Origin: Alitta virens
Taxonomy: Eukaryota; Annelida; Polychaeta; Phyllodocida; Nereididae
Length of the DNA stretch: 64,000 nucleotides
Assembly (NCBI GenBank): GCA_932294295.1
Contig: OW028581.1
Location: 17,156,662 to 17,220,661, forward strand
Reading direction: 5' to 3'
Part shown: positions 1 to 57,320 of the stretch, one piece after another
How the letters are laid out: every line of letters begins with the position of its first letter
How positions within the stretch are numbered: the first letter of the stretch is position 1
Translations under genes and position numbers: made by a program
The notes under the pieces: model-generated
Told to the model about the DNA's origin: nothing
What the model saw: only the letters and a program-made list of their open reading frames with translations
Databases searched by the model: none

Positions 1-3000
1 GACTTAAAAAGCCAGATCTACAAGTCGGAAGCTGATGAATTTTTCAAAGAAGTGGATGACCATGCTACTGCTGTAAGTTGTAGATTTACAAATCAGAGTT
101 GTCACATTTATGGTTGTTGGGCTAAGATGTCAATCACACGAGACTTTAAATTGGAGTGTCTTGTACCATTGAGCCACCACAATAGTGGCTCCATGTTTGC
201 ACTCATCGTATATGCTAAGGCAAGTAAAAGACCTCACCTCCATGGTAAAATAAAGAGTTACATGGTGAGGACACAAAGTCTTATCATCTCACCATTACGT
301 CTGCCTCTGGTTGCTGATCATAAGTTTAATCAAATGCAATGACTATTATTCCACACATTTTCCCCATCAGTGGTTTCTTTTACTTGCCTCAGCAAAGACA
401 CCGAGTACAAGGCACCTCCGAGTTAACGTCTCATGTGAGCAACATCTAGCTGAGATGTAGCTCATGAAGAGTCCCCTGGCCAGGAATTCAACCTAGAACC
501 TTCAACAGAGCTAGGCAATGTGTATCTGATCATTCATAGTAACTACCACGTCACCCACTGGCAGTTAGGGTGGGGGGCCTAGCTCAGTGGTAGCGCTGGA
601 CTTCCAACCACTGGGTCCTGGGTTAAATTCCCGGTCGTGCCTATGTTGGATGGCTGTTTCATCCATGGTCTCTACCTGTCCTAATTAGCCCATCAGGTGC
701 AGAAATACAGGACTTAAAGCCCTAATCCACCACCACCACCACCCACTGGCAGTTGCTTTGGCAAACAGTAAACAGACATCTCGTCTATTGGGGAGAAATG
801 TATAATAAGGTGGTGATTATGAAGTCTTCATCCTATGCACAACTTACAAATATTTCCAGGTGGCCAAAAGATACTACAAGAGATTTAGTGATATCATCTG
901 GGATCTCTTTTATAGAGATGACTTCACTGACCTGGAAAGAGCAAGGTAAGAGTGCCCTAAAATGCCTGGTTTTTTTTTACAACCAGTCTGAAGTTCCTGA
1001 GATACATGACCACGTACACAGAGCTTTCATTGCTAATTCACACAAATATCTAGATTTATATGTAGGCAAATCAGTTGTCAATATGATATAATTGGTGGAG
1101 ACCACAACAACGTCCATTAGAGCAGGAACATGACGTCTTGCCCAGCAGCCAATACAATTAAGTTGAAACATGAAGAACCAAGTCAATAATACTGAAGTGA
1201 AATTAACCTGTGTGTACCTGGTTCTGGTTCTGGTTGCTGAATTCCACCCGTTCCAATCGGGTAACCAACTAGTTGTAGGTGTTGCTTCTCTTGCGGTGAA
1301 GAAGTGTACCCTTGAATAGCTGGTCCCTATTAACGTGCAAATGGTGAGATATTGTGTTACATAGCTGGTTTGCTGGTATAACTTAATTTTTCAAGGCAAC
1401 TACTATGTTACTATTGCTACTTATAAGGCCATTACAACTCAGCCGACTCCATTTGGTATGGTTTACCTCGGCAGCAGCTCCAGAGTGGATGTATGTGGGT
1501 CAGCCAGGATTTGTGGATTATCAGCCATTTTAGGGTAGACTTTGTGGAGGCTTCATTGGACAGGTTCTTGAACCAGTGCTGTTTGACCAGCTTCAGATGT
1601 TCTGCTCTGTAACCATCCTTGTTGGCAGCTTTATTGCTGTTTAGTTCTCTGATGATACTTTTGACAGTGGCGACTGGAATCTGTATGTGGTCATCTTCTG
1701 CCTCAGCTAGGATTCTCATATGCAGGACTGATTCAATGTTTGGATCAGCATAGTCTGGTGTTCCTAGTTTTTCCGCAGCTGTTGCAAATTCCTCTCTAAT
1801 GGCTACTTCATCTGTGATGAGATTATCACCAATTAGTAGGGCAGTGGCTGGTACAGAGCCTAATCTCTGTCTGTGAACGAGTTTGTGAAAGAGTACTTGG
1901 TCATTGGTTGCAGCTGTGCTTATCTCAGATCTAAGCTGTGCTCTCGCAATGGCCTCTTCCATGTGCTGTATTGTTCTTATTCGTTTGGTAGCTCTTTTCT
2001 TATTCAACCATAGAGGGTGGTCACCACGTAGTTCACCGCTGTGTTCCATTGAAATTTAGCCAATTTTGACTCCTTTACCGCCGCTGCAAGTTCTGGTGTC
2101 CATCTCTTCCTTCGTCTCTAGCCAGCATGGATCTTTTTGTCCCTGTAGGGTATTGCAGCGACGGAAGCTGTGTCTGAGGTGCATTGAAGGACTTGTAGGG
2201 CTTCTTCAGCATCGAGCTAGAGTGAAGTTTGCAACCTCTTGTCCAAGGACCTCAGCAAAGAGAGCTTGTTCTGCAGCAGCGAAATCGAAGATCAGGCATG
2301 TCGTCTCCTGGTTGGGCACCAGTGGGGCGTGTGGGCCTGTGTTGAGCTTGAAGAGGAAGTGATCTATTCTTGAGGCGTGGCCAACGTGGACATTTACATA
2401 GGTGCTATCAGTATTGGTACATCCGGGGTCTTGTAGTTTGTGCTCTCTAATGAGGTTATTCAGTCTGCATTCCTTAGGCCCCTTGCAGTGGTAGTGGTCT
2501 GCATTGAAGTCCCCACAGATTATAACTTGGTGGGATGTGCCATATTTTTATGCATAGCTCATCTAAAGCATCTATGCCATTACTGAAGTTTGCAAGAGCT
2601 ACGGGATCATTCCCAGAAGGGAGATAACAGACAGATTGGTAAACAAGGCAGGTCAAAGATGGTTACAGCAATGCGCTCATTTCCTTCAGATTCTAATGGT
2701 CTTGCATATGCGTCAAGATGGTCTGCCCACAGAGTGGCCACTCCCCCACGGCCAGTGGGTTGGTATGTGTTGGGAGTTAAGGTGGCTTCGTCGCAGCACT
2801 TGGCTTGGAAGTTTCTCCATTGTTGTGGTATAGTGCCTTGTTCTTGCTTTTCAAAGTGGTGCAATGTTCCTGTATGCATAGGATGTCAATATGAGCAAGG
2901 GTCGAGTAATGACTGCATGATTTCTGTTGATACCTTCAGCATTAAAAGTAGCTAGATTCAGCTTGTTTCTTTTGCCTTTCAATCTGGTTGCCGTGGTATC

Positions 3001-6000
3001 TCCTCGACAGGCTGTATCCTATTTTGACCTGTCGGTGTGCAGCTCTCCAAGGAATCTGGTGAAATCAGCGTCTGGATGGATGCTAGGGCAGCTCGGTGGA
3101 TGTTCATGCGCTGAGTTCACGCAATTCTTGTTCTGACAAGCAGGTAATTCAGAAAAAATTGCCTAAACTAAAAAAATATGAATCCATTTCTCTTGCATTT
3201 TAAGAGAAGATTTCTTAAGTCAAAACATAGCCTATCGGCTACATAGTTTAAACAATTATTTTGCTTGGCCTGGTCAACTAGCAACGAATGTCCATAATTA
3301 GGCTGTTAGGTGACAGCACATCGTGTTGTGAAATGGCAGTAATAACCAATACTCTAATCAAAATAGTCATTGCCTACTGACTAAATATGTATTTTTTACT
3401 GTTCAGTAAAAGATATTGTCCGGCGTACTGTCCAGCTAGCTATCTGTCTGTCTGTCTGGCTTTCTGTCTGTCGTTCTGTCTTTTCTGTCTTACAAATCAG
3501 TTCTGGGTATATAAAGCTTAATTTTATGATGCAGGGTTAGGCATTAACTTTCACCAATGTCATCATTATGGTTATATGGTTACTTATACATGTAGTATAC
3601 TTGCTAACATTTCCTTCCTGCTCCATGATGTACGCGAAACGTCAATGTACCATTCGAAATTTGGTGATTCAGATTGATTACACAATATATTGGTACGCCT
3701 TTGGTTTAACTATGTCATATGTAAGGCTCAGATATGCCAAGTTATTTAACTCACATTTTTAACCTATATTTTCCAGGATAGCATTTGTTTGGTTGGTTCT
3801 GCACAATGCTCACAACTTCAAACTCGATCCAAAAGAGGAGGTGCCTGAAAATATTCGAAAATGGAAGGATGGCACTGGAAGTTTGACCGAAACATACACT
3901 TGCATGGCAAGGTGAGTGCTTGCTGTCCTCACCACTGACTCCTGTTTGTGGCCTTTAGCTGGCCACTTTGTCCTCATTGCAGCTGTCCACCCAGCAGAGA
4001 GTGGGTACATGGCTTATTAGATATAGGAAAGCTTCAGAATGAAGTTTGAGGCCAGGGGACCACTTAATGGGTATAGCGCTCTTGAAAATAGTTAACTATA
4101 CATTGTTAACATCCAACCTTCGGGTTGCCAATAGCTCTGAACAATAGCATGCTTCTTGAGAACCTTCTAAAGATATCAGTAAAATTGGATAGATAAAGTC
4201 ACTTCACAAGCATTTATATATGGGCAACACAAACAGTTAATTCCATTAACACGGCCTGTCAATCTAAACCTAGACAAAGCTAGACAACTTACGCTATACG
4301 ATGCTACCTGCCAATAAAGGAACTGTCTGGCTAAAGCTAGTTACTCAAAGCCAGATCTAAAAGTAAATGCAGCACCATCTGGTGCATAAGTTGAGTCACG
4401 CATATTTTTCATTATCATTTCTTGTTTAAATCAATTGTTTATATTTACCAACGTTTATTTATTTTTATTTTTACAATTTTTCTTTGGATAACAAATAACC
4501 ATTCTGCAGTAAAATGGTTCAAGTAGTACATGTTGTTCTTTAGTAGAGGGCGCCAGTTGATGGTGGTAGGTGTAAGCCGACTGTAAGCTGGGAGTAGACA
4601 GGTGCAACTAGCTTAAGCCAGTTATAGCTCCAGCCAGGAATAGGTGGCTACAGATGTGTACACGATCTTTTTCGTTTATGACAACTCCAACCATCAACAT
4701 TAACAGAAGAACACCCTAGCAATATGAGGAGCTAGTTTTAGTATTGAAAATTTATCCATTAGATTATGCAGCCAAATGCTGTCTGTTGTTGCAGGTATGC
4801 CAACCTTCACTGTTTAACTCTGACAGGATGGAAGTATGATATTGAAGAAGACTGCGAGAGATGGAATGCTGTGCATATCAGTGGTAATTGGCAGTTGGTT
4901 GACTGCAGATATGCTTGCTTGTAAGGACATTATTATGTTATTTACACCAAAGTTCATATGCAGGTATTGTGTATTGTTCAGTGAACAAAAATTAAAAAGA
5001 ATGAAAAGATCAAATATTATAATCGAGTCAATAGTCTTCATTGAGATACCAGATGATACCTGCTCTTTGATCTCTAGTTGTTTTACAAATTGCTAAATTA
5101 TGAAAGTTTTGATGCAGTAATGACTTATCATTTCTTTTCACTGTGTTATCACTTATTAGCCTAATGATCACTGCTTTATATCCTAGTAATTCACTGGTGC
5201 CTCGAGTCATGGGTTCAAATACCAAACTTTTGCCCAATGCAGAAGAATTTGTGAGTCTGCACGTGTAGAATGGAGTGACAATGCATGTTTTTGCCTCATT
5301 ATAATTAGCTAAAAACCATGCATTTTCCATGCGTTTATCCTTCTCATGGAAAACGCACGTGGCCCATTTGGCCATGTAGAAGCTGCATGGTTTTAGCCAG
5401 GGAGGAACGTTCCTCCACATCTCAAATAAATTGATTTATTATTTATCCTAGAAAACAATTAGAACAGAACAACAACAAGGCAGTAGACATGAAATATGAC
5501 GACTTTTACTTCATTCCTGAACCCGAGCATCTCATCTACTCCCATTTTCCAGAAGATGAAGCCTGGCAGCTATGCAGGACAACTCGCAGCCTGAAAGAGT
5601 AAGATAAGATAAGACAAGACATGATTTATTGGGGCCAATCCACCAATAATGAAGACAAAAGTCTGACATGCCGCAAGCATAACATTTGTGCAGAATGACC
5701 TATGAATGAAATTATCAAACCAATGGAATAAATTGATTGTCAAACTCCTTTAAGAAACTGACACAGCGCTATAGCCTGGTCTGAGTGGTCTAGTAGTAAG
5801 ACACTTGCCTGCTCCTCTGAAGAGTGGGCGGTAGGGGCAGACGGGTGTAACACTTTCGTTTCTGGAGCAGAACTCTAACACTAATGCACTTACCCTAACG
5901 AAATGTTGTACAGTAATACTCTATATGGCCTAGTAGTGCCTTTTGATAGTCACATTGTATGGTGACCGAGGAGTTCACTTCTTGGTGCAAAGGCGCCCCC

Positions 6001-6421
6001 CCCCCCCGACAGTCGAGGTTTTGCCCCCCGACAGTAATGGTTTCGCCCTCCGACAGTAGAGGTTTTGCCCCCCGACAGTTGAACCTTCATCCCCCGACAG
6101 CACCTACTTTCGCCCCACGACACCTTCGCACCAGTGATAGTATACTGTTGTACCACAAAAGTAATAGGTGTAGGTTTCGCACCACGAAAGTGAAGGCTGA
6201 TTCACTTAACAGCAGGTATGCAACTTTGTCAGAGTGGCTAAATTTCCTCCTCCCCCTCCTCCCTCTCCTCTTCCTCCCCCTCCCCCTCCTCTTCCACTTC
6301 CTCATCCCCCTCCCCCTCCTCTTCTTCTTCCTCCTCCTCCTCCTCCTTTCCTCTCCCCCTCCTCCCTCTCCTCTTCCTCCTCTCCCCCTCCTCCCTCTCC
6401 TCTTCCTCCTCTCCCTCTCCC

Positions 6422-6452
<31 letters not shown>

Positions 6453-9400
6453 CTCTTCCTCTTCCTCTTCCTCTTCCTCCTCCTCCTCCTCCTCCTCCTC
6501 CTCCTTCTCATCCTCCTCCTCCTCCTCCTCCTCCTCCTCCTCCTCCTCCTCCTACTCCTCCTCCTCCTCCTCCTCCTCCTCCTCCTCCTCCCATACAAGA
6601 ATGCATTATTTGTCACATCAATAAGAAACCTTTCAGGTGTGCATTATGTAATTATACCTATGGCTGGTATCAAATACTAAACCAAGATTGTACAGAGATA
6701 AATCTGTGACGGTGATTAGTAGCTAAAACCAGCCGTGAGGGGGGCAAAGTCGTAACTTTCGTGCACAAATTGGCACTGTCGTGGTGCGAAAGTTGGGACT
6801 GTCATGGTGCGAAAGTTGGGACTGTCGTGGTGCCAAAGTTGGGACTGTCATGGTGCGAAAGTAACTGTCTCCCCACGAAACTATGAGACCACGAAGTGCA
6901 CTCGTCGGCCACCATAACATTGACATATGTTACAAAATTTGGAAAAACAAGAAAGAAATTGTTTCTGGAGCAGAACTCTAAAACTTTGTCATAATATGTC
7001 TAAAATAGTGTAGTGGTGCCTTTTGGGGGTCTCATGGCCGTAAATACTATAGAATTTTCAAAAGTAGGGCAAAATAGGGAAAATTCCTACTTTTTCAAAC
7101 CTCAAAGACACTATTTACCTTACATGAATGAAATTGTATCAGTAAAATATTTAAATTATAGTATTTCACTTTTTAAACTTCATTTTGATATTCATTTCAT
7201 GCTAATTACAAAATAATGGAAAATCTGAAAAAAATTCTAAAAATTGTGTTAAATTGTGTTTTCTACCATTAATGCACTTACTCTAACAAAATTGTATATG
7301 TTGTTACTCTATAGCTGTGCATTTTGATAGTTACATTGACATATCTGAGCTGTGTTTTAAAATATTTCTAGAAAAATGAAAAAAAAAACATGAAAATTCC
7401 TGTTTGGACTCACACACTACTGCACCTACATATGGTGGCCGAGGAGTACACTTCGCAGTCTCGTGGTTTCGTGGGGAGACAGTTACTTTCGCACCACGAC
7501 AGTCCCAATTTTCACACCACGACAGTCCCAACTTTCGCACCATGATAGTGCCAACTTTCGCACCACGACAGTCCCAACTTTCGCACCACGATAGTGCCAA
7601 CTTTCGCACCATAACAGTGCCAATTTCGTGCCATGAAAGTACCAACTTTCGTGGCACAAAATAACCAACTTTCGTGGCATGAAAGTTACGACTTAGCCCC
7701 CTCACGGCCGGTTTAAGCTACTAATCACCATAAATATTAAATGTACAAAGATTTTATGCAGATGCACGGATGCATCTAACAAAGAGACATCTAGATCTGA
7801 AAAGAACAATGCAATATGCAAGTGCCCAAGTCTCCTCTCATGCAGTCTGGGAGCCTGTGTGTAGGCGCTCTTATCTCTGGACTAGAATAACAGTTATTAT
7901 GTTTTCAGAAATTTGGTTTCTCATGATGCTCATGCTCTTAGTTGTTTTAGTATTGTATTTCCACAGCTTTTAATTTGTGTACAATCTTGAGTTGAAAACG
8001 ACACAAATGCAACTAATCTAAAAATCACTGGCCTGTATGCAAAGTAAAGACTAGAAATTTGTTGTTCCTAGCCAATAGAGTATAGCATCACGACAAGGTA
8101 TTAAACATTATTCCAGGTAAAATAAATTAACAGATATCACGCAAACTTAGGCTTCCAGACTAAATGAAACACCCTCACTAACATCAAGATGCGTCACAAA
8201 GTGAAATATTATTTAGTGTGGAAAAGAAGGAGAAGTGAGAGGAGAGAGGAAGAGGAGAGGAGGATGAGAGGAGGAGGATGATAAAGGGGTAGGAGGAGGG
8301 GCAGGAGGATGTGGACGAAGAGAAGTGGACATGATGTAGCCACTCATATAAAATTGCATGCCTGCAGTTAATTGAATTAGCCTTCACTTTCGTGGAGCGA
8401 AGGTGTGTCGTAGTGCGAAGGTATTTCGTGGTGCGAAAGTTGTTTTGTTTCGTGGGCGAAAGTTGTTTGTTTCATAGGGCGAAAATTTTCTGTTTTGTGG
8501 GGCAAAAGTTGGACTTTTCTGGGGCGAAAGTTGGTACTTTCTTGGGGCGAAAATGGTAACTTTCGTGGTGCGAAAATTAGGCTGTCTCCCCACGAAACCA
8601 CGAAGTAAACTCCTCGGCCACCATACCTACATGCATACTTAACTTAGTAAGAATATGTCTAAAATAGTGTAGAGATACCTTTTTGGGGTTTCATCACCAT
8701 TTGTGACATAATTTTTTTGAATAAGGAAAATATGAAAATTTGGACATCTTCTCTTTCAAACCCTCATATCAATGACTCTATGATCCTAACATCAGCAACA
8801 TTTTGACAATGATATATCTGGATTATAGTTCTTTCACTTTTAAGCTTCTTTTTGACATTTGTTTCATTGTTCATTTTTTGTTCATAATATTGGAAAATCT
8901 GGAAAACATGCTAAAAATTGTGTTGCTTTCTTCATATATTCCTTAACATCCCATACTTAGCAATGACAGGCGTAAATGTTGTGCAATTCATGTGCAATTA
9001 TTAAATATTTAATCATAGTATTGCCATGCTCAACCCATTCAATAGTTTTTGTTTATAATTAGCAATTTTATAATAATTAGTTGCATCTATATTACTTTCA
9101 CTTGACTCCAATACTTATTATGGTTTTCTTCATATACACCTGTAAAGTGTTCGGTTATAAATACTTATTTAAATGCCATAGATTTAATGCAAATCAGCAA
9201 ACCAACAATTCAGTAACTGAATGGAATATGGCAATTGATAATATATTATCAATTGCCATATTCTCTTCAGGAATGATACTCAACACACCCATTTTAATGC
9301 CTTTATAAGACAAAATATTTTTTTCTGGCTGTTTAAATTTAACAGAATATAATGAACAAATGAAGAAATTCAAGAGTTCAAAAAATAGGACATCTTGGAC

Positions 9401-12400
9401 TCTAATTAGCATTGTGTAACAGGCTATGTAGGCCAAGTGGCAATTGTTTCAGTTCATCGCACACACTATATAAACACTCAAGAAATTATATTTTTGTGAA
9501 ACATAGCTAATATATGTCAGTGTGGCTATCACAAGGCACCACTAGGCCATATAGAGTGTTACTGTATAACATTTCATTGGGGTAAGTGCATTAGTGTTAG
9601 AGTTCAGCTCTAGAAACGAAAGTGTTTGTTAGAGTTCTGCTCTGGAAATGAAGTGTAACGCCCGCTCTCCTGCCTGTCGGAGGAGGAACACATAACAATT
9701 TTAATGATGCCTGTGTGCTATGTAGGATTTGCTGAGGGTTTAGCTGCAGCGCGGCCTACTTTTTTTTAATAACAATAATACAAAGAACTTAGTAAGATGG
9801 TGCAACTAATGCAGATAGTTATAAATTTGGCTGTGTTAGTGTGTTACGCTTGCGGCAGCTGGTTCTTCAAACCATGAAACAAAGGAAAATTTGCATCGTT
9901 TTAACCATCACTTAATACTAATGTTAACAACATGATATTGTTAAATATGAAATTGAATTTACAAGATATTGCATAGTTCGCCGTCATAGAAAAATTTGCC
10001 AAAAAAAAAGAAGCCTGTCCTGATAGATGTGTTATGCGCAGCTAGGGCCCAAACTTCATTTCTTGTCAAAATGCATTCAATGAAGAATTACTCATTTTGG
10101 CACAAATGATGCCCAATGTATTCATTATTGGTGGATTAGACCTTATAATAAAATTTTAATTAGGCAAAAAATTGATCAATCACTCCATTATTCCAGGTTA
10201 TAAAACTTTTGGAGGTTATTGTACAATTCTGTGACATACAAACGTCATCATTGTGAAACTTTATGATTTGCAGGTTTGAAAAATACCCTTCGGTCAACCC
10301 AGACTTCTTCAATTTTGGTATGAAGTTCATAAAACAAGAACAGTTCATCAATTACACTCATGAGGGCAAACTGGTCCTGACCCTGGGATTGACAAAGCCA
10401 CTTTGCTTCAGTTATCAAATCCGTAAATACCATAAAGAAAATGACAGAACTGATGTTGATGGTGTTTTGACTAATAGGTATGTATGCGTTGGTGTATGCC
10501 ACGTATGATTCACAGATATCCTTATAGAGAAACCTTAATATTCGAATTCCGAAGAGCAAATAGAGAGACAGAGCAATTATGGAGGTATGACGTATATGAC
10601 GTACGATTCGCCGACTATGACGTACGCTACGTATGGTCCATGTAATGCATCATATAATCTGCTGTACAATCCAAGTATTAACCACGGAAGTGAAAATGGG
10701 ATCAAAGAAATCAAAAATGATGGCCGCAATCACGTACAATATGCAATATAGTAGTCACCGTTTGATCGTCGCAATCGTAGACTCTTCCGTCGTATTCGTA
10801 GATATTTATTATTCCATACTTCGCTTACCTAAAAACTGCTGGGTGATTCGAGAGGCTGTAAGCAACGTATAACTGATGGAAGCCAAAGTAAGACTCACGT
10901 AAGCCTGCTGTATGCCACATACGATCTGCCGACTGCGGCTCATAATGCAAATATTAACCACATAAAAATATTTCCGGCCCATTTATTTTCATGCTACATC
11001 GATTTGATGTTGGCACAACATTGCTAAATACCATTGCTAAATGGTGTGCAAATAAAAACAGTATGTAGTAACTAAGGCGTGCGCGTTATATAAAAATGTG
11101 AAATCAAGACCAAAAAACCAATGCCTTAACTACCAAGAAGCCACAGGGTGGGGGCCTAGCTCAGTGGTAGTGTGCTGGGCTTCCAACCACTGGGTTCCGT
11201 ATAGGGTTCGATTCCCGGTCAAGCCTAAGTTGGATGACTGGTTCCTCCCCACCTCATTGCCATGGTCCCTGCCTGTCCTAATTAGCCCATCAGGTGCAGA
11301 AATACAGGACATAAAGCCCTAACCCACCCACCCACCCACCAAGAAGCCACCAAAGATATCAGGAATGTTAAAGTTTTGTTTTATCAATGTTTATTCTTCT
11401 CTTTTAGATTTGTAATGCAGGAGACAACAGATCGACGAGTAAGCTTCTACTTCAGAGCTCCTAGCACTGGAGCGTTCCGGCTGAAAGTTAAAGCTCAACC
11501 CGTTCCACGTGATTGTGTACCCAAAGCAGTTGACGAGGAAAGGATTATTGAATTTAAGGTCAGTTACCAAAAAGGACAATAACAATGACATATTCAAGAA
11601 GGAAAACAAACTCAAAATTTATATTTAATCTATTTATTAACAAAATACAACAATACAAGTGAAAACTCTAAACGAAATCCACTATAGATATATATTTACA
11701 ACTCAGTCCTTTTGACACAAAATGTTTCGATATGGGGCACTGCGATCATAATGTGTAGATCTTAATGCGTAGATCACATGGTCCTGATGATGTTCCCAAA
11801 GTCCTTGACAACAGTGTCTGAAAACAGTCCTTTATAGAACAGTCTTGAAGTTGATAGTCCTTTGATGTTTCTTAATTTACTTTGACAACAATCCTTTTAA
11901 TGATGGTAAATCACAGTAGAATTGATACTCAAACCATGTACTCCAGTGATGCATCAAGATGGCACAACTCTCCACAGTAATCTGTGATCAGATTTAACTC
12001 TCTAAGAGACTATGTGGAGTATAAGCTCTGGCAATCTAAAAAAAACTACTAACTATTTAACTATTTCTTGTATATATGTTATGACAAAAGGTAGTTGATA
12101 TGTGTAATATGAAATAAATGATTCTGATTCTTTTGATAAAAGGCAGTTCATGGTTGTTTTGGATCACCCCACATAATTACTATTGATGCCTACCAACCAT
12201 ATGCTCTTTGCTAATACCAACCATATGCTCTTTGCTAATACCAACCATATGCTCTTTGCTAATACCAACCATATGCTCTTTGCTAATACCAACCATATGC
12301 TCTTTGCTAATACCAACCATATGCTCTTTGCTAATACCAACCATATGCTCTTTGCTAATATCAACCATATGCTCTTTGCTAATTTAAACAAAATGGCTTG

Positions 12401-13171: not shown

Positions 13172-13321
13172 ATTCGCAAAAAAACTATGGAAAAGATGTG
13201 TACGATTTGTGCATTCATTTTTTGTGACAAGTGCATAGAAGAAGCATCAGAGGATATGCACAAATGCCCACCATGCAGGAAAAAGCTTGGCTTTAAAGAT
13301 ATTCATCCTATTTGTGTCTAA
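13172..13321 (+). pseudogene. Orphan last exon of gene A: degenerate second half of a RING finger
   Basis: An acceptor (TTCATTCACAG) precedes a 150-nt open frame ending in TAA at 13319-13321, the same length and position as the final RING exon of genes B and D. It keeps CTIC, CDKC and CPPC, but the C-G-H-I-F-C core is C-A-F-I-F-C, so the RING histidine is lost. The preceding exon with the first C-x2-C pair is not recognisable between 12925 and 13171; a short GTCCCATAT match near 12992 could be its mutated remnant. The RING of gene A therefore cannot bind two zincs normally. It may still be transcribed as 3' UTR. An AATAAA lies at 13476-13481. Confidence 0.65.
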
Positions 13322-21400: not shown

Positions 21401-23377
21401 ATTTACCACTGGTGGTTACAGAGAAGTAGCAGAAACTACAATGGCAAGCTTCGAGTTTTGCTGCACAGAAGTGTTTTTATTAGCTAGAAAGTTTGGGGTT
21501 TGACTTTTTGATAACATTTGTGTCCATTTTGTGCTGCTCTGTGCCATTTACGCCAAAAAAAAACTAAAAAAGTTGAAATTTATTTTGAATCCTACTATAC
21601 TGACATTTTCTGTTGACCTAGGTGTGCTTCACTCGATTGTGCTATTGTTAATGGATGGAGGGAAAACATCATAGGTGAACCCAGTGACTTTTGGAATGCG
21701 GTACATATCGATGGAAATTGGCAGTTTGTAGACTGCAGATATGCTTGCTGGTGAGTGAATATATATATATATATATATATATAACACAGCTCGTACAAAA
21801 TGTATCTGATGTTAATTTAGCTAGTTTGTTAATTAGCTATATGTAGGGGAGAGAGGGCAATTACAAAAATGCCAATATTCTTATGTAAGGCAGTAAGGTC
21901 TTTGTATTCTTTCAATGCCACTGGTCTGACGCTTAGCAGCCAGAGGTACATGTAATAATGAGATGGTAAGGCTTGAAGTTTACACTGTTTTACCCGGGTT
22001 CGATTTCAACTCCTCTTGAAAGAATTTTTTTTTTAAATCAATTGATAACATCATAACTCATGCTAAAAAATAGGTTGCTCTTCCTTTTACTTCATGCCGT
22101 TTGCATACACAGCACAGCAAACATTAAAGAGATCCACTGCACCACTACAACGAGGCTGAAGACCAAGTTGAACATAACATTTGAGAGTGTGTATATCTCA
22201 TGTCTCACAATGTGGGTGGGTTAAGGCTTTACATATGTATGTCCTGTATGTCTGCACCTGATGGGCAGGGACCATGGCAATGAGATGAAGGTTGAAACAG
22301 CCATCCAACTTAGGCTCGACCAGGAATTGAACCCGGGACCCACTGGTTGGAAGCCCAGTGCTCTACCGCTGAGCTAGGCTCTCACCCTCTGTCTCACAAT
22401 GTAAACATTGTGTAATTGTACAGTTACATCTGTGGGTGGGCAGTTGGTCAATGTCAGGAATCATGTTTCAATGTGGGTGATTGAGGAACTGAAAAATAAA
22501 CTCCAAAAATATTTGCGTCTATCTAAGATATTACTCAGACGCGAGACATGTGGAGGAGTAAAACTAACCTAATATTGTATCACTCCTCTTTTGGTAGGCA
22601 ACAGAAAGATAACCCATTAAAATATGACGACTTTTACTTCATTCCTGAACCCGAGCATCTCATCTACTCCCATTTTCCTGAAGATCCAGCCTGGCAGCTA
22701 TGCAGGACACCTCACAGCAAGGAAGAGTAAGTTATCACAAATAAGTTGATACTCATTGCGTTCTGTTTGGCTAGATTTCTTAGTATTTTTTAATCTTAAT
22801 TTATGAAAGAGTGAGGTATAAAACGTTTTGAATATCTTGTATGTTTTGTGACCAGATTTTGTTATTTTGATTAAATTAACTGTAATATTCCAGAAACCCA
22901 TTTTACTGAATACAATTATTCTCATAAAATTTGACAAATTCACACACACCAAGTGGTAGCAGCTGCAAAAAGCATCTTATTTCCACTGGCCAATAAATTT
23001 AACTGAATTAAATGGAATGCAATTGTTAACAGTTACAGTAATGTTTTAAGGAAAACAATTAGGATATTGGTAGAGGACAATGTTATACATTCCAGATTTA
23101 ACGACTTTCCACGAGTCCAGCCCTTCTTTTTCAACTTCGGCTTGGAGTTCCTCCAACAGAACCAAAGGAAAATGTTCACTCAGCAGGGCAAACTAGTCCT
23201 CACCCTAGGGATAACACGCCCAGTCTTTGTGAACTATAACATCCAGTACAAGTGTAGGGATGATGAGGATGAATGGTATGACGGTTTTGACGAATGGTCG
23301 CTTAATAGGTAAGTATGAGATGGTATATAACATTACATGACATGACACACATTTAGTTGTCATATATATATATATAT

Positions 23378-23425
<48 letters not shown>

Positions 23426-44336: not shown

Positions 44337-47300
44337 ATGGGAAACTTGCTTAGAAGGGAAGCATCAGAGGAACAGACCGCAGAAGCAGCTCCTGAGAACT
44401 TCGTGCTTCAGAAACTACCAACAACTGGCAGACCTCCTCCTGCTCCCCCCAGAATCCTGAAACATCAGGTATACACTGACCCTGACTTTTTCAAAGAAGT
44501 TGATGACCATACCATTGCTGTAAGTAAAATAACATTGCTTAGCATATTGATAAAAATGTAATTTAGTGAGGAGAATAAACTTTGAGCTGACAAGCCTGCT
44601 ATTCAAAGCTTTCGGCATGGTAAACTTTTTATTGACTACCATTCTTAACCATATTATTGTTAACGCTTGACAAACTTTTAAAATTTTGTCTAACTCCATA
44701 TGACCAACTCCATATTGATAAAAATTAGTCAGATTAACTAAGATTGACTAACATGTTATTCAAAATTGCCAGGGGTCAGTCATGTCAAATGGTTGAAGGT
44801 TAGTTTAATCAAAGATAATCATTGCACATCTTTCAATACAATACAATAACATTTGTAATTGTGGGATGCAGCCACCAATGTGTAACGCTATCTTAGCAGC
44901 TTATTTTTTTTCTTCACATCTGGCATATTTAACTTGAGAGCTATTGAGTCTGCAGCAAATATTTATATAGGATCTGTCCATATTAAATAATTATGATGTA
45001 ATGCATTGAGAATTTGTTTTGTGTTTTTTTCCTTTTTTTTTATTGGTAGGTTGCCAATGTCGCCTTTACAAACTTTCGGGATTTGATTTGGAATCTTGTC
45101 TTCAAGAAAAAATTCAATGAATTAGAAAAGGCAAGGTATGTGTTGTGAAAGTAATTTTAGTAACTTGCATGCCATACCTCTGGAATAATTGCTATCTCCT
45201 GCCAGCTGCAGCTGGATGCGATAGTATCCAACCAAACTTTCTAATATAATTTGACATCCCGACGTCACAAGACTTCAGTTTTCTAATGTGTGCAAGCAAG
45301 ATGGGTCTTTGTAACGACCTTCCCTTTCTCTAACAATCAAATTTTTAATATTTTGGACAGCCACACCTAGCAGATAACAATACTCCCCTTGCGAGAACAA
45401 AAGTGTTGGTATTTCTACTATAAGAAAGTCTGGTCAGATGCTATCACACCCAGTAGATTAGCAATTGCTTATGATAAAACTCACAAATAATTTCTCTGAA
45501 GAGCGATTTGATTTGGCATCATCCCTGTGCATTGAAATTTTTATTGTCTGGGCAAACCATAAACAAAAACTATAATGTTTCTGTGTATTGTAATTCATGT
45601 ATGTATTATTTCTGGACAATAAACAAATAATCAATCAAAAAAAAACATACCAGCGCAGTTTAAAAGTAGCTGGTCCATCAAATATATATTAATATTATAC
45701 TCCAGTAGTACTTAAAGTTTATCTGATAACAAAAATACGAACCCCAGGCATGATGCACAGGCCTAAACTACTGATCTCATAACTTCACCTAGCGAAAACG
45801 CGGCGGCCTGTATTATATATATCCTAAAGGTATCCATCGGCCATGCAGATTAACGATAATCATTAATTAAACTTATGCCCACACTTTTTTCTGTGATAAA
45901 TACAGCATGACATAGACTGTTAAAGCACAGAATTATCCCAAATATAGTTTACAACTGTGTTCACATACACAAAAAGTTGTTTTAGGCCTTCCTGTGCTGC
46001 TACGAGAGGGAATTCCTGACTAAACTTGAACATTTTGTTGAATGTGGCTCCCTTCAACATTAGCTGGGCCGCTGCGACTAGCTGACGCAGTACGCAGGTA
46101 GGGGCTGCCATAAACCAGGAGGAATTCCTCCCGGTAGCGTGCGCGCGCATCCTATACTTTAACATTGAAAATGCGTGGACCGGAACGTGATCCCAAGTCT
46201 AAAAATCAGAAAATTCAGTGCTAGGCCAATCAACCATGGGAGATGGACAGCACCTACCTGCCTATCGCGTTACCGAAATATGGAAATTTGTGACACCAGT
46301 GCCCGTTTGGGCCGGAGACCTCTCTTTGGGCCATGAACGATGTTTACCTTGATGTTACTATAATAGATCAAGTGTCGAAGTCGGCGCATAGTAATTTAGG
46401 CCCGTGCATTATTTTAACAGATATCGGGTAAAACTTTTCTACAAAAAAAAATCAAAAAAAGCCAAAAGCAAAAATAGTCGCCTACTCAAGGCAGGTTTTA
46501 TACAAAGGACATAAAACAAATTTGGCAGTTATATGGTAGTATTGTCAGATGTAAATAGTTCTCTGATTGAAAGTATTTACCTTAAAACATACCATAATTT
46601 CTTTTTATTTGTCACATATGTCATGAAGACAAAATATGCATTACTTGTTTTCATCTTGCCTTCCATAACAGAGCTATATTTCGATGGATGACACTGAACA
46701 GAAAGCACAAATACAGCTTTCACCACAGAGACCGATGTTCACCAGATGCAATTTTGCAAGGATACAAAAATGGCACAAAAAGCGCAGCGCAGGCTGTGGA
46801 GTGCTTAGCATTGTAAGACACTTAAAGAATGAATAAGTTTTTGACACACTGAAATATAATGCAGAAATAAGACAATAAGGCTCGATAACTCACTTATAGA
46901 TTAAGAAATATCAAAAATGCATGTGGCAAAGCATGGTTAGAAGAAAGCACCAGAATAGAAAACACAGCAAGCAATGCATGCACAGCCTCAACGTGGAAAA
47001 ATTGTAGACATAATGGTATGTAGTAAGTGCTTTAGACAAGCCTACGCAGTAATGTGTTTTGGTCTTGCAGCGCATGTTCAGCCAAAATCTGCCTGGGGGC
47101 TGCGCACCGTACCATTGCGACATTAACCAGAAGGGATTCCTCCCGGTAGCGTACGTGCGCATCCTAGGCTTTTACATTGGAAATGCGTTGACCGGAATGT
47201 GTTTCCCAGTCTAAAAATAGCAGAAAATTCACTGCTTGGCCAATCAGCCATGCAGGATAGGTAGACCATTAACCAGGAGGGATTCCACCCGGTAGTGTGC

Positions 47301-50300
47301 GTGCACACTCGTTACTTTTTCATTGCGAAGCCGTGGACTGGAACGTGTTCCCCAGTCTAAAAATAGCACAGCTAATCAGAAAATTCAGTGCTTAGCCAAT
47401 CAGCCATGCGGGATAGATAGACTCAACCTGCCTATCGCGTTTACACTTAGGCAGGTCCCAGCCAATGCGACGCCTTGCCTAGTTGCATCGTAGCACAATT
47501 TTGCACCCCGTTGCGCCGATATATTGCGAAAATGTTCTATAGAATTGCAAAGAACACATTACAAAGAAGTGGGTCAGACATTGTGGGTAGCAACCTGATG
47601 CTAAGCCACACATCTGATGATGCCTTGCTCAAGTTGCCCTAGGACTGGCCTTGCTTCTGATTACATTGAGTGTATTGCTAATATTTTGCAGAAGAAGTTT
47701 ATACAACTGAAAGCTTTAGAAAAATCTACAAAGCATTATGTGCAGTTAAGTTGTACCAGCACCACTAACATATCCAAACGTGTAGGGGTCATTAGCATTG
47801 TAAGCTTCCTTTTTGTCTACAATTGGGGCATTTAAGGCACAAAATAGTGATATAAGTTATTTACAATGTACTGATGAATTTAGCAGGTGTACCTGTGTCT
47901 CTTTCTTAGTAGAGTGAAATACTGTACTATTATATTGAAGTTTGAATTTCCACACTCTTAAAAAGATTTTAGACAATGATTGTATAAATCAAACAATAAA
48001 ATACAATGATATTGGTTGGCTTAAACAATTATTGTCTATAAAAACAAACAGTATAATGGCTGATTTTAACCAAATTATTAAGTGGTCCTCAGAGAAACAT
48101 TATTTGTCTGGAAAAGACAATCTTTTGCTTTGTACATTGAAGCTCTGTAACAAAAATGTATACTCACTAAATACCCTTTTCTTCGCTCCATGTCAATTGT
48201 TTGATGAGCCCAATAAATTGAACTACTCTCGAACACTATTTGGGAAGCATCTCTGTAAAATTGTGTACTAATGCTGTGGTATTTACTTTCAGATATGCTG
48301 GATTGCATTGCATTCGGCTACGTGGTTGGGTGAAGGGAGTGGGCTTCGAGCCTGGAATTTCAGTTACAAGCAAACTGCCAAACCACAGCTGGAATGCCTT
48401 GTACATAGATGGAGACTGGCAGTTCATTGAAAGTCAATGGGCTACCGCGTAAGTATTGGAGTCTACTGAACTATGGAGCAGTATGTCAGTGTCCTTATAT
48501 AATTACTGGCAAAGCAACATAATCCAACTCATGTGAAACTTGGTGACAATTTCCTTAGTCATGGTGACCTCATGGAACTGAATTTACATGTAAAGTCTCT
48601 TTGGCTCATTTCACATTATTGTAAGTTTAGAATTATGCATTGCTTTTAGGTCAGATCCAGCATCATACAGGGATTTCTACTTTTTGCCCGATCCAGCCAA
48701 ACTCATCTTTACTCACTTTTCTGAAGATCCAGCCTGGCAGTTGCATCAACCATGTCGTAGTCGGGCAGGGTAAGTTGACTAAAATACTTCATCTGACAGC
48801 TGTTTCATCCGTTTGTTGAAAAAAAAATGCAGAGTGATCCAGTAGCAGCAGATAAAAATTATCATTTATGAATGCACTGAGTTTTATACTGAAAAGAAAT
48901 ATTTCTTCAAAATAAAAATAACCCGATCCAAATAATTTTTTTTAACCTAGAAATTAGAACAAAACTTGTGTTGAACTGTACAATTGCAAACTTTTTCCAG
49001 AAGATAGTCACAGCCAGGGTAAGAAGATCATGTATTTCGTAGCATATTTTGATGATTTATCAATAAAACATTGAAACAGTAATGGTAATTGGGAGGAGAC
49101 ATCCTAAAAACACACATTGGTTGTGTCGAATTGTGATTCTATAATCAAAAATTACCACAAGACTTGATAATCTTCAAATAAACAATTTCCTTTGCTCTAT
49201 TTTTGCAGATTCAATGACTCTGTGACAGCACAGTGCCAATTCTTCGACTATGGCATGCAGTTTCTCCGACAGGACCAAGCTGTCATTTACACGCATAATG
49301 GAATCTTAGTTTTGACCCTTGGGTTTTCACAACCTTTGGCATTCATTTTCCATCTGAAGTTTAGCGATGATAGGGAGGACTTTCAAGGCAAGTCTCTAAG
49401 AAGGTTAGTAACTGATTGGTCTAGTGCGTACAGTAGATTTCATAGACTTGGAAGCTAAACTTCAGATGAAGTCATATGAATCCATGGCCCCCGTTGGTTG
49501 AGGGACTGGCATAGCCAATGAGACAGTACAATACAATACAAAACAAATCCAAACAGGAGAAAGACTGGCTCAAATTCTTCTTGATGTCAGTTTTATTCAT
49601 ACCATGTGAGACTTAATGGCTCTTCCTGGGAATATTTCAAATAATAATTTTGCAGTAGTTTTGCAATGATGCTTTTGAAATAAATGTAAATCAACCTTCC
49701 AATATCAATTCTAAACACCTGCAGAATGTGCTTGATATCTTAAATCAGAACAACAAGTATTGTAACAAACTCGTAACATTAGCATCACCCTTAATCTCGA
49801 AATCCTTTAGAATGAATGTGACTATTTGGTCAGAGCAAGAATAAATTTTGCAGGTACGTGGTCCAGGAGACAACAGAATTTAGAGTGAGCTACTATGTAC
49901 GGATGCCTCGGGTAGGAGATTACCTCTTAGAAGTTTACGCTCAACCGGTTCCAGAGAACTTGATTATGAGACAGAATTACACACACATTTGTACATACAA
50001 GGTACTGTTCCACAGCCCAAAATAAACTGGAGCCCTATGCGGATTTTGTCCCACTCTATATAAATTATGATACCTTTGATTTCTTGTATAAGATGTAAGT
50101 AATCTTATGCTCTGTTGAACATAGCCCAATGTGATAAAAAAGAGACACAGGACGTTGTCACATTTCAGTGGTGAGCCTCTGTTTCTGAGTATTATCATTT
50201 CAGTGTACGTTTTCAGGTGTTTGTTTTTTGTATAATGCACATGACAACCTCTTAATAATATTTAATTACTTCAACATGCTTTCAGATTATCTGTGAAGAA

Positions 50301-53300
50301 GCAGCATCATGCGCCCCGCCCTTTCCAAGGAGCCCCGATATCAGCTTTGGTCCTGGAGTGGAAGTCCGACAGCTTGGTCTCACTTCCTACCAGCAAAAAG
50401 CAATACTGTTGACATCAACTGGAAATATTGAGGTGTTGTTTGAAAAATCATGTCCTGTAACACTACATGCCACTCTATGCAGTGAGGAAATACCCAATGA
50501 GGAATTAACCAGTTTGGTGTCAGTTCAAGATGAAGGTGATTGGATATACATCACTTGTGAACTCCCCATGCAGGGAGAATACGGATTGTGCATTTTTGTG
50601 ATAGAATCACATAATGGAAAAGAATCTTATTCATACATATGTCAGTATCTTGTCACATACTCCAGTCAGGACAAGGAGACTCTTTACGGCATGGTTTATG
50701 ATCAAAGATATTCAAGAGATCATTCGCGATACAATTATATACTGGATGTTTATAATGCTTTGACTGAAGATCCACAAGGTGCTGGATTACCAGGTAGAAA
50801 TCTATTTGAAACTGGTCTATTTGATTTCAGTGAGCATGCTTATAAAAAGTCTGGTGAGATCAAGTCATAACCTAATTTTTGCATTTTACACTAGACCTAC
50901 ATAAAACAAAACAGGCTGTATTCGAAGGTTTGTTACAGCCCCAAATATATTGTTATATATGGCTCTAACCATCTAGTATTTTTATTTTAGCTAATATTTT
51001 CGTATTGAATTACAATTAACACACATACAGTGTATACAGACCTGTATAAGCTGCAGAGGAAGGGCTCCGTTTGAGCCCTCCTTTCATTTCACCGCATTTC
51101 ACCTTAAGACCCTAAGGCTGAAAAGGGGTAAAACCAAAACTTGCAGCTTTAAAAAGGCCTGTATATCTATTAGATCATAAGTATCTTTTTTTTAATCTTA
51201 TTGAAATTCTTTATAGAAGCAGGCATGCCTGAGGACTTCCCGGAAGACATTATAGATGAAGAGTATTTGTCAACATCTGAAGAGGAACAAAGGCGAGCTA
51301 TCCTTTTACATGATCCTTGGTGGAAAGGGGAGGGAAGGTGACAAAAATTGAAATAATTTCTCTGCAATGTGCTCTATTTGATTAATTACTCACGATAAAC
51401 AAAGCTTTGTGTGGAAATTTTTAATAAAAAGGAACCTGTGTTTGAAAGCCAAAGTCAGTTGTCATGGAAACTAATATAATTCTGTATTAGGCCCTCATGG
51501 ACACCCTTTGAAGAAGGGATTACCCTCTGGTCACATGACTAGCCATGCTCTGCTATTCATTTAATTTAACCCCCCCCCCCCCAACCACTGGCATTTCATA
51601 ACCTGTGAGTGTGATGTATTATAAAGAAGTGTAATTTCTCCTCATGTTTTAGGTTATTATGCTAATTTTGTTACAGTGATGAAGAGAGTGAAACTGTGGC
51701 TCTAGTATATCCAACATTTAGGTGTCCAATCTGCATGGATGATGACTTGGAGGTAAGTAAGATCATTTTATCGGTTTATTGACCATATAATAAAGAAATA
51801 ACCATGATAATAAACAACAAAATAATAACAGTAGTTTCAGTTTGTCATATGAAAAAACCCATAATAAACAACAAAATAATAGTAGTAGTTTCAGTTCGTC
51901 ATATGAAACCCCTAATAAACAACGAAATAATAACAGTAGTTTCAGTTTGTCATGAAAACCCATAATAAACAACGAAATAATAACAGTAGTTTCAGTTTGT
52001 CATGAAAAACCAATAATAAACAACGAAATAATAACAGTAGTTTCAGTTTGTCATGAAAAAACCCATAATAAACAACAACAAAAATAACAGTAGTTTCAGT
52101 TTGTCATGAAAACCCATAACAAACAACGAAATAATAATAGTAGTTTCAGTTTGTCATGAAAACCAATAATAAACAACAAAATAATAACAGTAGTTTCAGT
52201 TTGTCATGAAAAACCCATAAAAAACAACGAAATAATAATAGTAGTTTCAGTTTGTCATGAAAACCAATAATAAACAACGAAATAATAATAGTAGTTTCAG
52301 TTTGTCATGAAAAACCATAATAAACAACTAAATAATAACAGTAGTTTTAGTTTGTTATGAAAACCCATAATAAACAACGAAATAATAACAGTAGTTTCAG
52401 TTTGTCATGAAAGACCCATAAAAAACAACGAAATAATAATAGTAGTTTCAGTTTGTCATGAAAACCAATAATAAACAACGAAATAATAATAGTAGTTTCA
52501 GTTTGTCATGAAAACCTACTTAACAACAAAATAATAACAGTAGTTTCCATTTGTCATGAAAACCCATAATAAACAACAAAATAATAACAGTAGTTTCAGT
52601 TTATCATGAAAAACCGTAATAAACAATGAAATAATAAAAGTAGTTTCAGTTTGTCATGAAAGACCATAATAAACAACGAAATAATAACAGTAGTTTCAGT
52701 TTGTCAAGAAAACCCATAATAAACAACGAAATAATAATATTAGTTTCAGTTTGTCATGAAAAACCATAATAAACAACAAAAATAACAGTAGTTTCAGTTT
52801 GTCATGAAAACCCATAATAAACAACAAAATGATAACAGTAGTTTCAGTTTGTCATGCAAAACCCATAATAAACAATGAAATAATAATAGTAGTTTCAGTT
52901 TGTCATGACAAACCATAATAAACAACGAAATAATAACAGTAGTTTCCGTTTGTTATCAAAGACCATTATACACCAAGATGCAGTTTTGATACTCTGGCTA
53001 TTGTTTCTATTGATCACTTAAGAACATATATATATTAGCTCTTGATTCACGCTGATGACCACTCTACATATATAATTATATATATATATATCCACTATAT
53101 ATACATAAATATTAGTGTAAGATTAGCAAATTGTTAAATTAATAGCACAATGGTCGTAACTGAAGTCTGAAGAGTTATAATAAGCACTCGAATAAAGATC
53201 ACTGTTAATCTTAAGAGCCTTCATTATGAGATGGTCTTTATACTGGGGTAATGTTTGGCTTTAATGTTTTTATTATATATCTCCGACTGAATGCATACAA

Positions 53301-53716
53301 TATAACTGGTTTATAAAGCCCAAATATTCCAAGAGTATAGAGTTTAGACAAGGAGATAACGACTCTTAAAGCCCTAAAAAAAAGATAGTCTTTATCTCAC
53401 AGTTAACATTCTAGGGAAATTTGGGTAAGCCAACTAGTCACATTATTTTTTTTCAAAGATGCTCAACATTCAAGGCCAACATTTTCACAGTGGCATATAT
53501 TTTGATAATCCCAACAGAAGAAAAAATTGTATATTGATATTCACAATATTTCATGCTCTCGCACAGATCCTAGAAGAGGGAAGAAGGACCATGTCAACAA
53601 AATGTGGCCATATTTTCTGTGACACTTGCATATTGGATGCCCTGGAACGCCAGAAAGTTTGCCCAACATGCAGAAAAACTTTATGTAATGGAGATATACA
53701 TACTATATATCTCTAA
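44337..53716 (+). CDS. KY/hillarin-like protein with C-terminal RING finger, paralogue D (complete)
   Basis: Eleven coding exons: 44337-44519, 45050-45135, 46672-46812, 48293-48448, 48650-48769, 49209-49403, 49854-50001, 50286-50853, 51217-51337, 51677-51752, 53567-53716; 1944 nt, 647 aa, in frame throughout. Exon 8 is 568 nt, as in gene B. The N-terminus starts MGNLLRRE and has a Pro-rich stretch before LKHQVYTDPDFFKEVDD. In the transglutaminase-like core (NHSWNALYIDGDWQFIES) the His is present (168) but the Asp position is Glu183. The KY segment is DFYFLPDPAKLIFTHFSEDP. Exon 9 encodes an acidic linker (DFPEDIIDEEYLSTSEEEQ). RING ligands: C589, C592, C611, H613, C616, C619, C630, C633. The phase-1 donor ending exon 8 (TCTG/GTGAGA) was chosen because it fits exon 9; the frame also runs open past it to a stop at 50868, so a RING-less isoform is possible. 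Confidence 0.87.
46112..46250 (+). repeat. ~140-bp dispersed repeat, three copies in gene D introns 2-3
   Basis: ATTCCTCCCGGTAGCGTGCG, then GACCGGAACGTG, CAGTCTAAAAAT and GCCAATCAGCCATG recur at 46112-46250, 47120-47260 and 47272-47430, all in the same direction. The copies flank exon 3 of gene D. Family unknown. Confidence 0.75.
51796..52965 (+). repeat. ~50-bp minisatellite, about 23 copies, in gene D intron 10
   Basis: The unit contains AATAAACAACGAAATAATAA followed by CAGTAGTTTCAGTTTGTCAT and a short A/C spacer. About 23 units vary by a few bases (AACAG or AATAG; 2-5 A after CATG). It separates the two RING exons of gene D. Confidence 0.95.
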
Positions 53717-54828: not shown

Positions 54829-54869
54829 GGTGGAACGTAGCACAAGGATATACATTTGGCATTACCAAA

Positions 54870-57320
54870 ATGGCTACACCATCAGACTTTGTGCCAGAGA
54901 ATAGATCATTATTAGGCATGCCTCGCCCAACTCCCCCAAAAGTCTTGAAACATCAGATATACACTGATCCTGAATTCTTCAAAGATGTTGATGACCATGC
55001 CATTGCTGTAAGTGATTGCAAGGCTTTGACTTTTCAATCCCACTTATGCTTGTTTGGTAATATCTGACACTTTTTGTGAAGCAATGATCTTAGACTAATA
55101 TTTATATAAACCAATGCAAAATTGTATCAGCGCCTCTTAAAGGAAATATTTGCATTGTGCAATAACACAAAATCCTGACTCGATACATTGTAACTAACAA
55201 AGTAAATACGGTATAGTCTATAATTACCTTTCTAGGTTGCAAATGTTGGCTATACAAGGTTTCGGGATTTAAAATTCAACGAATTAGAAAAGGCCAGGTT
55301 GGTTTCTAATGAGTTCTTTCCATGCAAAGATAATATAAAGATAATACAATAAAAGAACCCTAACTTCAGTTATCTGTAATTGGTGTCAGTCAGCATGACT
55401 TGATTTGTCAACCTAGTGCAAAAAATTAGGCGGATTCAAGAGTCACCACCACTGTTATGGTTGAGTCTCTACTTAAAACTTATTACTTAATAAAGAAATT
55501 CAAGACGTTTTTGATGTTCTAGAGCAATATTCCGATGGATTACTATGAAAAGCAAGCTCACTTACAATTTCGACAATGGAAGCCCAGGGTCACCCAATGC
55601 ACTTTTGCAAGATTTCAAGGAAGGGAAAGAAATATATGCAAACACTTTGGAATGCTTAGCGTTGTAAGTCTTCTCATAAAATATATTTTTTTTATTTTTT
55701 TTTTGGGAGAGGAGGCTGTCGGGCATCATTTATGAACTAAGGTTTGCACCGTAAATGTGTTTATGTATATATTTCCAGGCATGCTGGTTTGTACTGCATA
55801 ACGTTGGGTGGATGGGTAAAAGGACAGAGTTACCTCCCTGGATCTCCAATCACAAGTCAACAAAAAAACCACAACTGGAATGCCATACATATAAATGGGG
55901 ATTGGCAGTTTATTGAAAGTAAATGGGCTACCAGGTATAAAGTCATGGATTCTATATTATTACTGAGCTTAAACATGGATGCAGAAGAGTCAATTCTATT
56001 TTAGTCTAATTGACTTGGTATGGCCTAATCTTATTGGCTATCAATAGATTAAACGTCATTCCCTTGACTTAAAGTTACTATGTCTCCAGATTTAGCATAT
56101 GCAAATAATTGTATAAACCAAATACTCCCTTCTTGTCTCATGATATTTTTACCATTAGAGGCCCTTTTGTGCACAACAATTTAATTTTAAGTTACAATTA
56201 ATATATGAATTGAGAGTTTTTCATGCCATCAAATATACAATACGTAAACAAACCTAGTTATAACGTCAAAATACTGAACAATGGGTGATGATCTCATTTC
56301 CATTGAGTTTCCAATGTTTTGCTCTGGATTTTCTCTCAATTTCATATTAATTTGTTGTAATTTATGTCTTATAGACTGACCAACTTATAAAAATTTAGTG
56401 TGCCTTGGTAAAGTACAGCCATTTTAAATATGGGATAAAATTGCAATTTTGACAAACAATGTAGCTTTAACTGGATGTGGTTTAAAAAAATTAGATGTCT
56501 GGTTTCTCTTCTGTGAACTGCTTATTGTTGATGAGCCAATCGAACAGTTTAACGCACACTGCATATTCACCTACCTACTACAAGTGCTCCCCACCAATTA
56601 CAACAGGCTGTTTTTATTACGTAATAACCTGAATATGAGTATAGAAGCTCTGTGTACGTGGTTAGTGCAATGGCAGTAAAAGATGCATTCAGGGATATTT
56701 CCAAAAAGTAGTATTAAGTCTAATGACTTACTTTCACTTTCTTATCAGAAGGTCACACAGATCAGACTCACTGTAAAATTTGTATATTTTGAAAATGACT
56801 TTGATGCAGTTTACTTCTAATTTCAAAATTACCTGATTAGATTTCAAATTACCTGATTGGATTTTATTGTCAGTGTGACATGACTTTACAAGTCTAGTCA
56901 TGTCTGGCCTAGTGGCCTTTTGCATCAAGGAATATTGTGATAGTTTCTTACACAACATCAGATTGGCCAGCCTTGAAATTAATAACCCCTGTTCCATGCA
57001 TCCTGACTCCTGCTGATATTACCACAACATGAGACTCACCATCACATGAAGATATGAATCATATAAATCATTGTATTTTTCTAAAATATGTAAGGATTCT
57101 TGAACAAGACCAAGGTCACAAGTGATGTCATCACACATAAGCTACTTCTGGTTATGTTCTGTAGAGAATATTCAGTACCAGACTTTTTTGCAGTTCTGAC
57201 CCCACATCATTTGATGACTTCTACTTCCTTCCTGAACAAGCAAAACTAATCTTCACTCCAATATTGAAGTCCAAGATCCAAATTTATTTTGCTGAACTCA
57301 CATTAGGTTTGGTAAGTTAG
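54870..57320 (+). pseudogene. Truncated KY/hillarin-like paralogue E
   Basis: Five exons resemble gene D: 54870-55007 (ATG; LKHQIYTDPEFFKDVDDHA), 55236-55297, 55523-55663, 55779-55934 and 57194-57311. Exon 2 has lost 24 nt (8 codons) relative to D, in frame. Exon 4 keeps NHNWNAIHINGDWQFIES: His145 present, Asp replaced by Glu160. Exon 5 starts normally (SDPTSFDDFYFLPEQAKLIFT), then departs from the family where HFxEDPAW is expected, passes a good donor (TTTG/GTAAGT) and stops at TAG 57318-57320. No beta-repeat or RING exon is recognisable downstream to 64000. It is either a 3'-truncated duplicate (pseudogene) or a short transglutaminase-like-only protein. The first four exons have no stop codon, so decay, if any, is recent. 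Confidence 0.7.

Follow-up and report, generated by a model that had tools for sequence, protein, structure and literature searches.

Proteins of the KY/hillarin type, which join a transglutaminase-core-like segment (TGc; PF01841) to KY-type immunoglobulin (Ig)-like domains (PF23265), include mammalian KY, a protein located at the Z-disc that binds filamin C and whose loss is accompanied by aggregation of filamin C and by a build-up of ubiquitinated proteins. In the cited passages, KY is described as having no enzyme activity shown on an endogenous substrate and its domain as one that may serve protein contacts (PMC6078408). The ubiquitin ligase RNF4 exists for the most part as an inactive monomer until SUMO chains bring it together, and becomes active without SUMO upon chemical dimerisation or RING-RING fusion (PMC3991395). 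When a nanobody is put in place of its SUMO-binding part, as in the engineered ARMeD constructs, the nanobody target is destroyed, one RING being less active than two (PMC7332993). Here we describe a tandem array of five paralogous genes, A to E, from the annelid Alitta virens (GenBank assembly GCA_932294295.1, contig OW028581.1, positions 17,156,662 to 17,220,661 of the forward strand; the entire 64,000-nucleotide stretch is hereafter called the window), three of which are predicted to encode a KY/hillarin-type body fused to an RNF4-type RING. We propose that these three, B, C and D, are probably single-chain ubiquitin ligases: the KY-type body, likely inactive, would hold a target and the RING would ubiquitylate it. 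Bodies and RINGs of these types are each already known; what appears to be new is their union, of which we found no record in the open-access literature or in the protein database, which yielded few animal relatives. In the gene-expansion literature, too, 'kyphoscoliosis peptidase' was absent among the matches listed.

Organization and domain architecture of the array

The five paralogues lie head-to-tail on the plus strand, with the same exon sets recurring along the window (GC content 31-43% in 4-kb steps), and their splice models combine inter-copy homology, GT-AG sites and reading frame (Table 1). Genes B, C and D yield complete predicted frames of 631, 570 and 647 amino acids (aa), each with a single terminal stop. 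All 29 introns modelled in them are GT-AG (10 of 10 in B, 9 of 9 in C and 10 of 10 in D), a count that is partly a product of how the models were built. Phases of 0, 2, 2, 2, 2, 2 and 0 after exons 1-7 are common to all three, and the partial exon sets agree, with 2, 2, 2, 2, 2 and 0 after exons 2-7 of A and 0, 2, 2 and 2 after exons 1-4 of E. Each of the three complete predicted proteins runs from a degenerate transglutaminase-like segment through two KY-type Ig-like domains and a linker to a C-terminal RING. Pfam searches recover PF23265 (Ig-like_KY) in two stretches of each (E-values of 2.2e-33 in B, 3.7e-38 in C and 1.3e-40 in D). In B, C and D, PF01841 scores 15.8, 19.1 and 14.8 bits (E-values 0.017, 0.0017 and 0.037), under the Pfam cutoff of 23; these sub-cutoff segments can be aligned over their full length with relatives scoring above it. 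The preliminary description of this DNA had claimed head-to-tail paralogues with shared exon phases and a KY/hillarin-type domain order, and both claims are borne out by these phases and profile matches.

The nearest relatives, P0001 (41% identity to D, over 74% of D), P0003 of Pinctada imbricata (36%) and P0002 of Sparganum proliferum (34%), likewise place KY-type Ig-like domains after a TGc-like segment, but P0001 and P0002 run into a second TGc module where B, C and D have the RING. Further relatives are P0005 of Adineta steineri (30%), a protein of Rodentolepis nana (29%) and P0006 (29%). Searching with a profile built from B, C and D recovers the same six together with two weak ones, and those with named sources are from flatworms, a mollusc and a rotifer. 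In P0005 the KY Ig-like domains are also fused to a zinc-binding domain, but this is a LIM domain (PF00412) and it is N-terminal. A search with residues 340-622 of D found no match among 704 candidates, and the structure predicted for exon 8 of gene D (shorter form, four rows) consists mostly of strands at a mean pLDDT of 68.7.

The catalytic residues of the transglutaminase fold are eroded throughout the array. In an alignment with P0006, a reference that keeps the catalytic Cys, this column holds T, S, E and T in D, C, B and A; the catalytic His survives only in C and D, and the Asp in all of these four but D. Gene E, which lies outside the alignment, has by its sequence a K at the Cys position. 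P0001, P0002 and P0003 share the lack of the Cys and also carry K in that column, so its loss likely predates the gain of the RING. We accordingly reject an active transglutaminase or peptidase, as the Cys is absent from A to E and the Cys-His-Asp triad is incomplete. The absence of this residue from all five copies suggests that the KY-type body is a dead enzyme which likely serves as a binding module.

The RING and its relationship to RNF4

The RING is spread over two exons and is complete in B, C and D only, where PF13639 is detected with E-values of 5.8e-10 (D), 3e-9 (C) and 5.6e-8 (B) and all eight zinc ligands are retained. Among all chains of the PDB, the best match of each of the three is RNF4. 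For D, the RNF4 two-RING chain gives 8e-37 and the single RING 2.1e-18, against 3.2e-9 for the best non-RNF4 chain; the corresponding values are 4.3e-28, 4.5e-14 and 1.9e-7 for C and 1.1e-33, 8.8e-18 and 9.7e-7 for B. Alignment to RNF4 is gap-free over 59 residues (identity 49% for D, 41% for B and 39% for C), and the proteins end in HTIY (D), HPLY (B) and HPVY (C), as against HPIY in RNF4, which likewise carries its RING at the extreme C-terminus. RNF4 uses M136 and R177 for binding the ubiquitin-conjugating enzyme (E2), I188 for dimerisation and Y189 for contacting ubiquitin (PMC3991395). The equivalents are M, R, I and Y in D, L, R, V and Y in C, and F, R, L and Y in B, such that the E2, dimer and ubiquitin positions are kept or conservatively changed, with hydrophobic swaps at two of the four in B and C. 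The C3HC4 RING noted earlier in these three genes is thus intact by both its ligands and its profile match, and the ubiquitin-ligase function that had been guessed from it is strengthened, as a prediction, by the specific match to RNF4 and the retained functional residues.

Proposed mechanism

The association of KY with filamin C, the activation of RNF4 by clustering and the layout of the nanobody degraders together suggest a client-holding body with a cluster-activated RING. The RING exons would be spliced to the KY body in the RNA, and the body of the resulting protein would hold a cytoskeletal client. The RING is presumed to be weak as a monomer; when several copies gather on a polymeric or aggregated target, it would dimerise and become active, much as RNF4 does on SUMO chains, and would then ubiquitylate the held target, likely tagging it for destruction. 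By analogy with mammalian KY, the first candidate target would be a filamin-like cytoskeletal protein. In function, the predicted KY-RING protein would be a natural counterpart of the ARMeD degraders, in which the SUMO-binding part has likewise given way to an Ig-like-fold binding module attached to an RNF4-type RING; as described, however, ARMeD is man-made, has a known target and is stronger with two RINGs (PMC7332993), whereas B, C and D carry a single RING. Beyond this, we tentatively entertain a broader evolutionary scenario, in which an RNF4-type RING was separated from its SUMO reader and fused to a dead-enzyme scaffold. This might have generated tandem single-chain target destroyers with diverged grips, firing only on a polymerised or aggregated target; A, its working RING since lost, may shield targets from the other copies.

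Incomplete copies and divergence

Exons 2-8 of gene A form an open spliced frame of 431 aa with six of six introns GT-AG; Pfam reports PF23265 in it (1.9e-27) and neither a RING nor PF01841. Its exon 1 was not found in the window and may precede the window start. Between exons 8 and 11 of this gene, open reading frames of at least 12 aa in 12880-13330, exon 11 aside, contain no CxxC-bearing RING half. Exon 11 itself retains the R and I equivalents, with C replacing the terminal Y and the zinc-binding His gone. A complete fusion is consequently rejected for A, given the lack of a first RING half and an exon 8 that ends in phase 2 where exon 11 needs phase 0. For gene E, translated searches (tblastn) of A-D against 56001-64000 match exon 5 and nothing beyond it, and this gene is likely a broken copy. 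The array had been characterized as expanded; the expansion is modest, with three intact genes, one without a complete RING and one broken.

Synonymous sites are near saturation for gene pairs other than A-B (proportion of synonymous differences, pS, 0.71-0.81), and on this account the ratio of nonsynonymous to synonymous change (dN/dS) is not computable for A-D and B-D. Over whole proteins, with D entered as its 622-residue form, it is 0.41 for A-B, 0.29 for A-C, and 0.23 for both B-C and C-D. That the predicted frames have long been kept open despite such divergence indicates purifying selection on the array. Among B, C and D, pairwise identity is 27-51% in the first exon, 28-38% in the TGc part and 35-45% in the Ig domains, but the RING reaches 46-54% and exon 5 49-56%; the RING is hence better conserved than most of the body, though not uniquely so. 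We also observed conversion-like tracts between A and B (5492-5606 with 22620-22734, and 12465-12663 with 24789-24990). The best 60-column windows of this pair have 59 of 60 identities in exon 5 and 60 of 60 in exon 8, and exons 2, 3, 4, 6 and 7 are 54-68% identical overall.

Splice models

Most splice sites rank within the top few per cent of plus-strand AG or GT sites, a ranking that is partly circular because its matrices (39 donors and 39 acceptors) were drawn from these same models. Exon 2 of gene B was placed by profile and splice fit. For exon 8 of gene D there are five frame-keeping GT sites from 50778 on, of which 50853 scores best (8.4, against 5.5, 2.5, 1.4 and -1.8 for the others) and is positioned like the donor of gene B; use of the weaker donor at 50778 would make D 622 instead of 647 aa, a form with nearly the same Pfam result. 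Ten other open reading frames have no Pfam match at E<=0.01. The predicted proteins of C and D, starting at 31944 and 44337, both begin with MGN. N-terminal myristoylation usually calls for a small residue or Ser/Thr at position 6; this position is H or R in C and D, which departs from the pattern, and we do not claim this modification.

Table 1. Exon coordinates of the five paralogues, numbered from the first nucleotide of the window
Feature	Exons	Span	Strand	Remark
Gene A, exons 2-8	860-945, 3777-3911, 4795-4920, 5452-5598, 10274-10477, 11408-11558, 12479-12924	860..12924	+	KY-type body
Gene A exon 11, remnant of second RING half		13172..13321	+	lacks zinc-binding His and terminal Tyr
Gene B, 11 exons	15403-15543, 18179-18264, 20117-20248, 21622-21750, 22598-22726, 23096-23308, 24244-24394, 24803-25370, 26398-26509, 27051-27135, 28401-28550	15403..28550	+	predicted KY-RING, 631 aa
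Gene B exon 10, linker end and first RING half		27051..27135	+	CPVC
Gene B exon 11, second half of RNF4-type RING		28401..28550	+	includes stop
Gene C, 10 exons	31944-32066, 32680-32762, 33098-33235, 33566-33718, 34355-34471, 34712-34909, 35072-35213, 35621-36123, 36262-36364, 37059-37211	31944..37211	+	predicted KY-RING, 570 aa
Gene C exon 9, linker and first RING half		36262..36364	+	CPIC
Gene C exon 10, second half of RNF4-type RING		37059..37211	+	includes stop
Gene D, 11 exons	44337-44519, 45050-45135, 46672-46812, 48293-48448, 48650-48769, 49209-49403, 49854-50001, 50286-50853, 51217-51337, 51677-51752, 53567-53716	44337..53716	+	predicted KY-RING, 647 aa
Gene D exon 10, linker end and first RING half		51677..51752	+	CPICM
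Gene D exon 11, second half of RNF4-type RING		53567..53716	+	includes stop
Gene E, exons 1-5 only	54870-55007, 55236-55297, 55523-55663, 55779-55934, 57194-57320	54870..57320	+	likely broken copy

Alternative explanations

Several observations weigh against our proposal that B, C and D are single-chain ligases. With A lacking a complete RING and E broken, the RING seems to be dispensable in some copies. Some splice sites that the fusion models use are weak, namely the exon-11 acceptor and the exon-7 and exon-9 donors of D and the exon-10 donor of B. Exon 9 of B was placed by splice fit alone, as the longer of two candidates that passed a filter on frame, pyrimidine tract and donor. Pfam finds a RING in none of the eight relatives, an absence that is weak given the few animal proteins the database yielded and that agrees with the earlier remark that no standard KY-RING architecture is known. 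The putative catalytic residues are conserved in mammalian KY and not here, and it is from KY alone that the candidate target is drawn. Readthrough past exon 8 would add 1 residue in A, 41 in B, 1 in C and 5 in D before a stop, which makes KY-only transcripts possible. This would suit an arrangement in which the RING exons are separate short RNF4-like genes located 3' of KY-only genes. We judge this arrangement highly improbable: the RING exons occupy the same place and strand in all three complete copies, with a remnant in A, the joined KY and RING frames are open in B, C and D, and the exon with the first RING half starts in phase 2, which calls for an upstream exon. Separate genes are thus disfavoured by both exon phase and repeated placement.

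The same RNF4-type RING might instead point to ordinary SUMO-targeted ligases with the KY body as an accessory, a role to which a SUMO-interacting motif-like stretch in the linker of D could be assigned. RNF4, which has a SUMO-binding region where these proteins have the KY body, needs several such motifs. Stretches of this kind are absent from the linkers of B and C, and the one in D is not above chance, since at least one also occurs in 295 of 1000 shuffled linkers. These counts weaken a role for SUMO, though one is still possible for D, and they do not support an ordinary SUMO-targeted ligase, which we consider quite unlikely. A somewhat less unlikely, though still doubtful, alternative accepts the fusion but has the RING serve chiefly for self-ubiquitylation or as a scaffold, such that it would adjust how much of the KY body is present and no outside target would be degraded. 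The report that RNF4 is itself degraded once activated (PMC3991395) fits this, but the comparable engineered layout of nanobody and RNF4 RING destroys its target (PMC7332993). The diverged tandem copies with their A-B conversion-like tracts are also reminiscent of an immune array, in which the bodies would bind molecules of microbial origin or damaged parts of the cell, with the RING marking these for destruction. KY-peptidase-like transcripts have indeed been reported in abalone haemocytes, at reduced levels following challenge, and among the markers of haemocyte clusters in oyster (PMC11250055, PMC12064177); those passages, however, make no mention of a RING, and the whole-protein dN/dS values are below 1, and we hold an immune function to be improbable. 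Expression clusters of oyster gametogenesis also include a KY peptidase together with filamins, a RING being unmentioned in the passage concerned (PMC3348941).

Repeats and mobile elements

The window also contains several repeats. At 20192-20751 a 62-bp unit recurs in about nine copies with 98% matches; because the unit includes the final ~57 bases of exon 3 of gene B together with its splice donor, this donor recurs in tandem. A 24-bp unit is repeated eight times (99%) at 12191-12383, within the intron that leads into exon 8 of gene A, and a satellite-like array with a period of ~50/101 bp occupies 51807-52960 in intron 10 of gene D. An element of ~180 bp occurs in five copies, four on the plus strand (566-736, 11146-11328, 14400-14569 and 17754-17940) and one on the minus strand (22387-22215), which share 79-84% identity with the 17754 copy. 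One copy matches an Rfam tRNA family (33.2 bits) and ARAGORN calls no tRNA; the element is likely a tRNA-derived short interspersed element. Related repeat elements at 5848-9745, in a gene A intron, and at 37358-40146, between C and D, share pieces of up to 95% identity and show inverted end-like matches; these are likely non-autonomous transposons.

Biological significance

KY has been tied to filamin and muscle protein turnover, with its mode of action left unexplained in the cited account (PMC6078408). If the proposal made here is correct, a branch of the KY family with a ubiquitin ligase of its own would point to client binding as the role of the body, and a version with a dead RING, used as a trap, would offer a direct route to its clients. 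The array would likewise present a natural case of the re-aiming of the RNF4 RING by a swap of its target-binding part.

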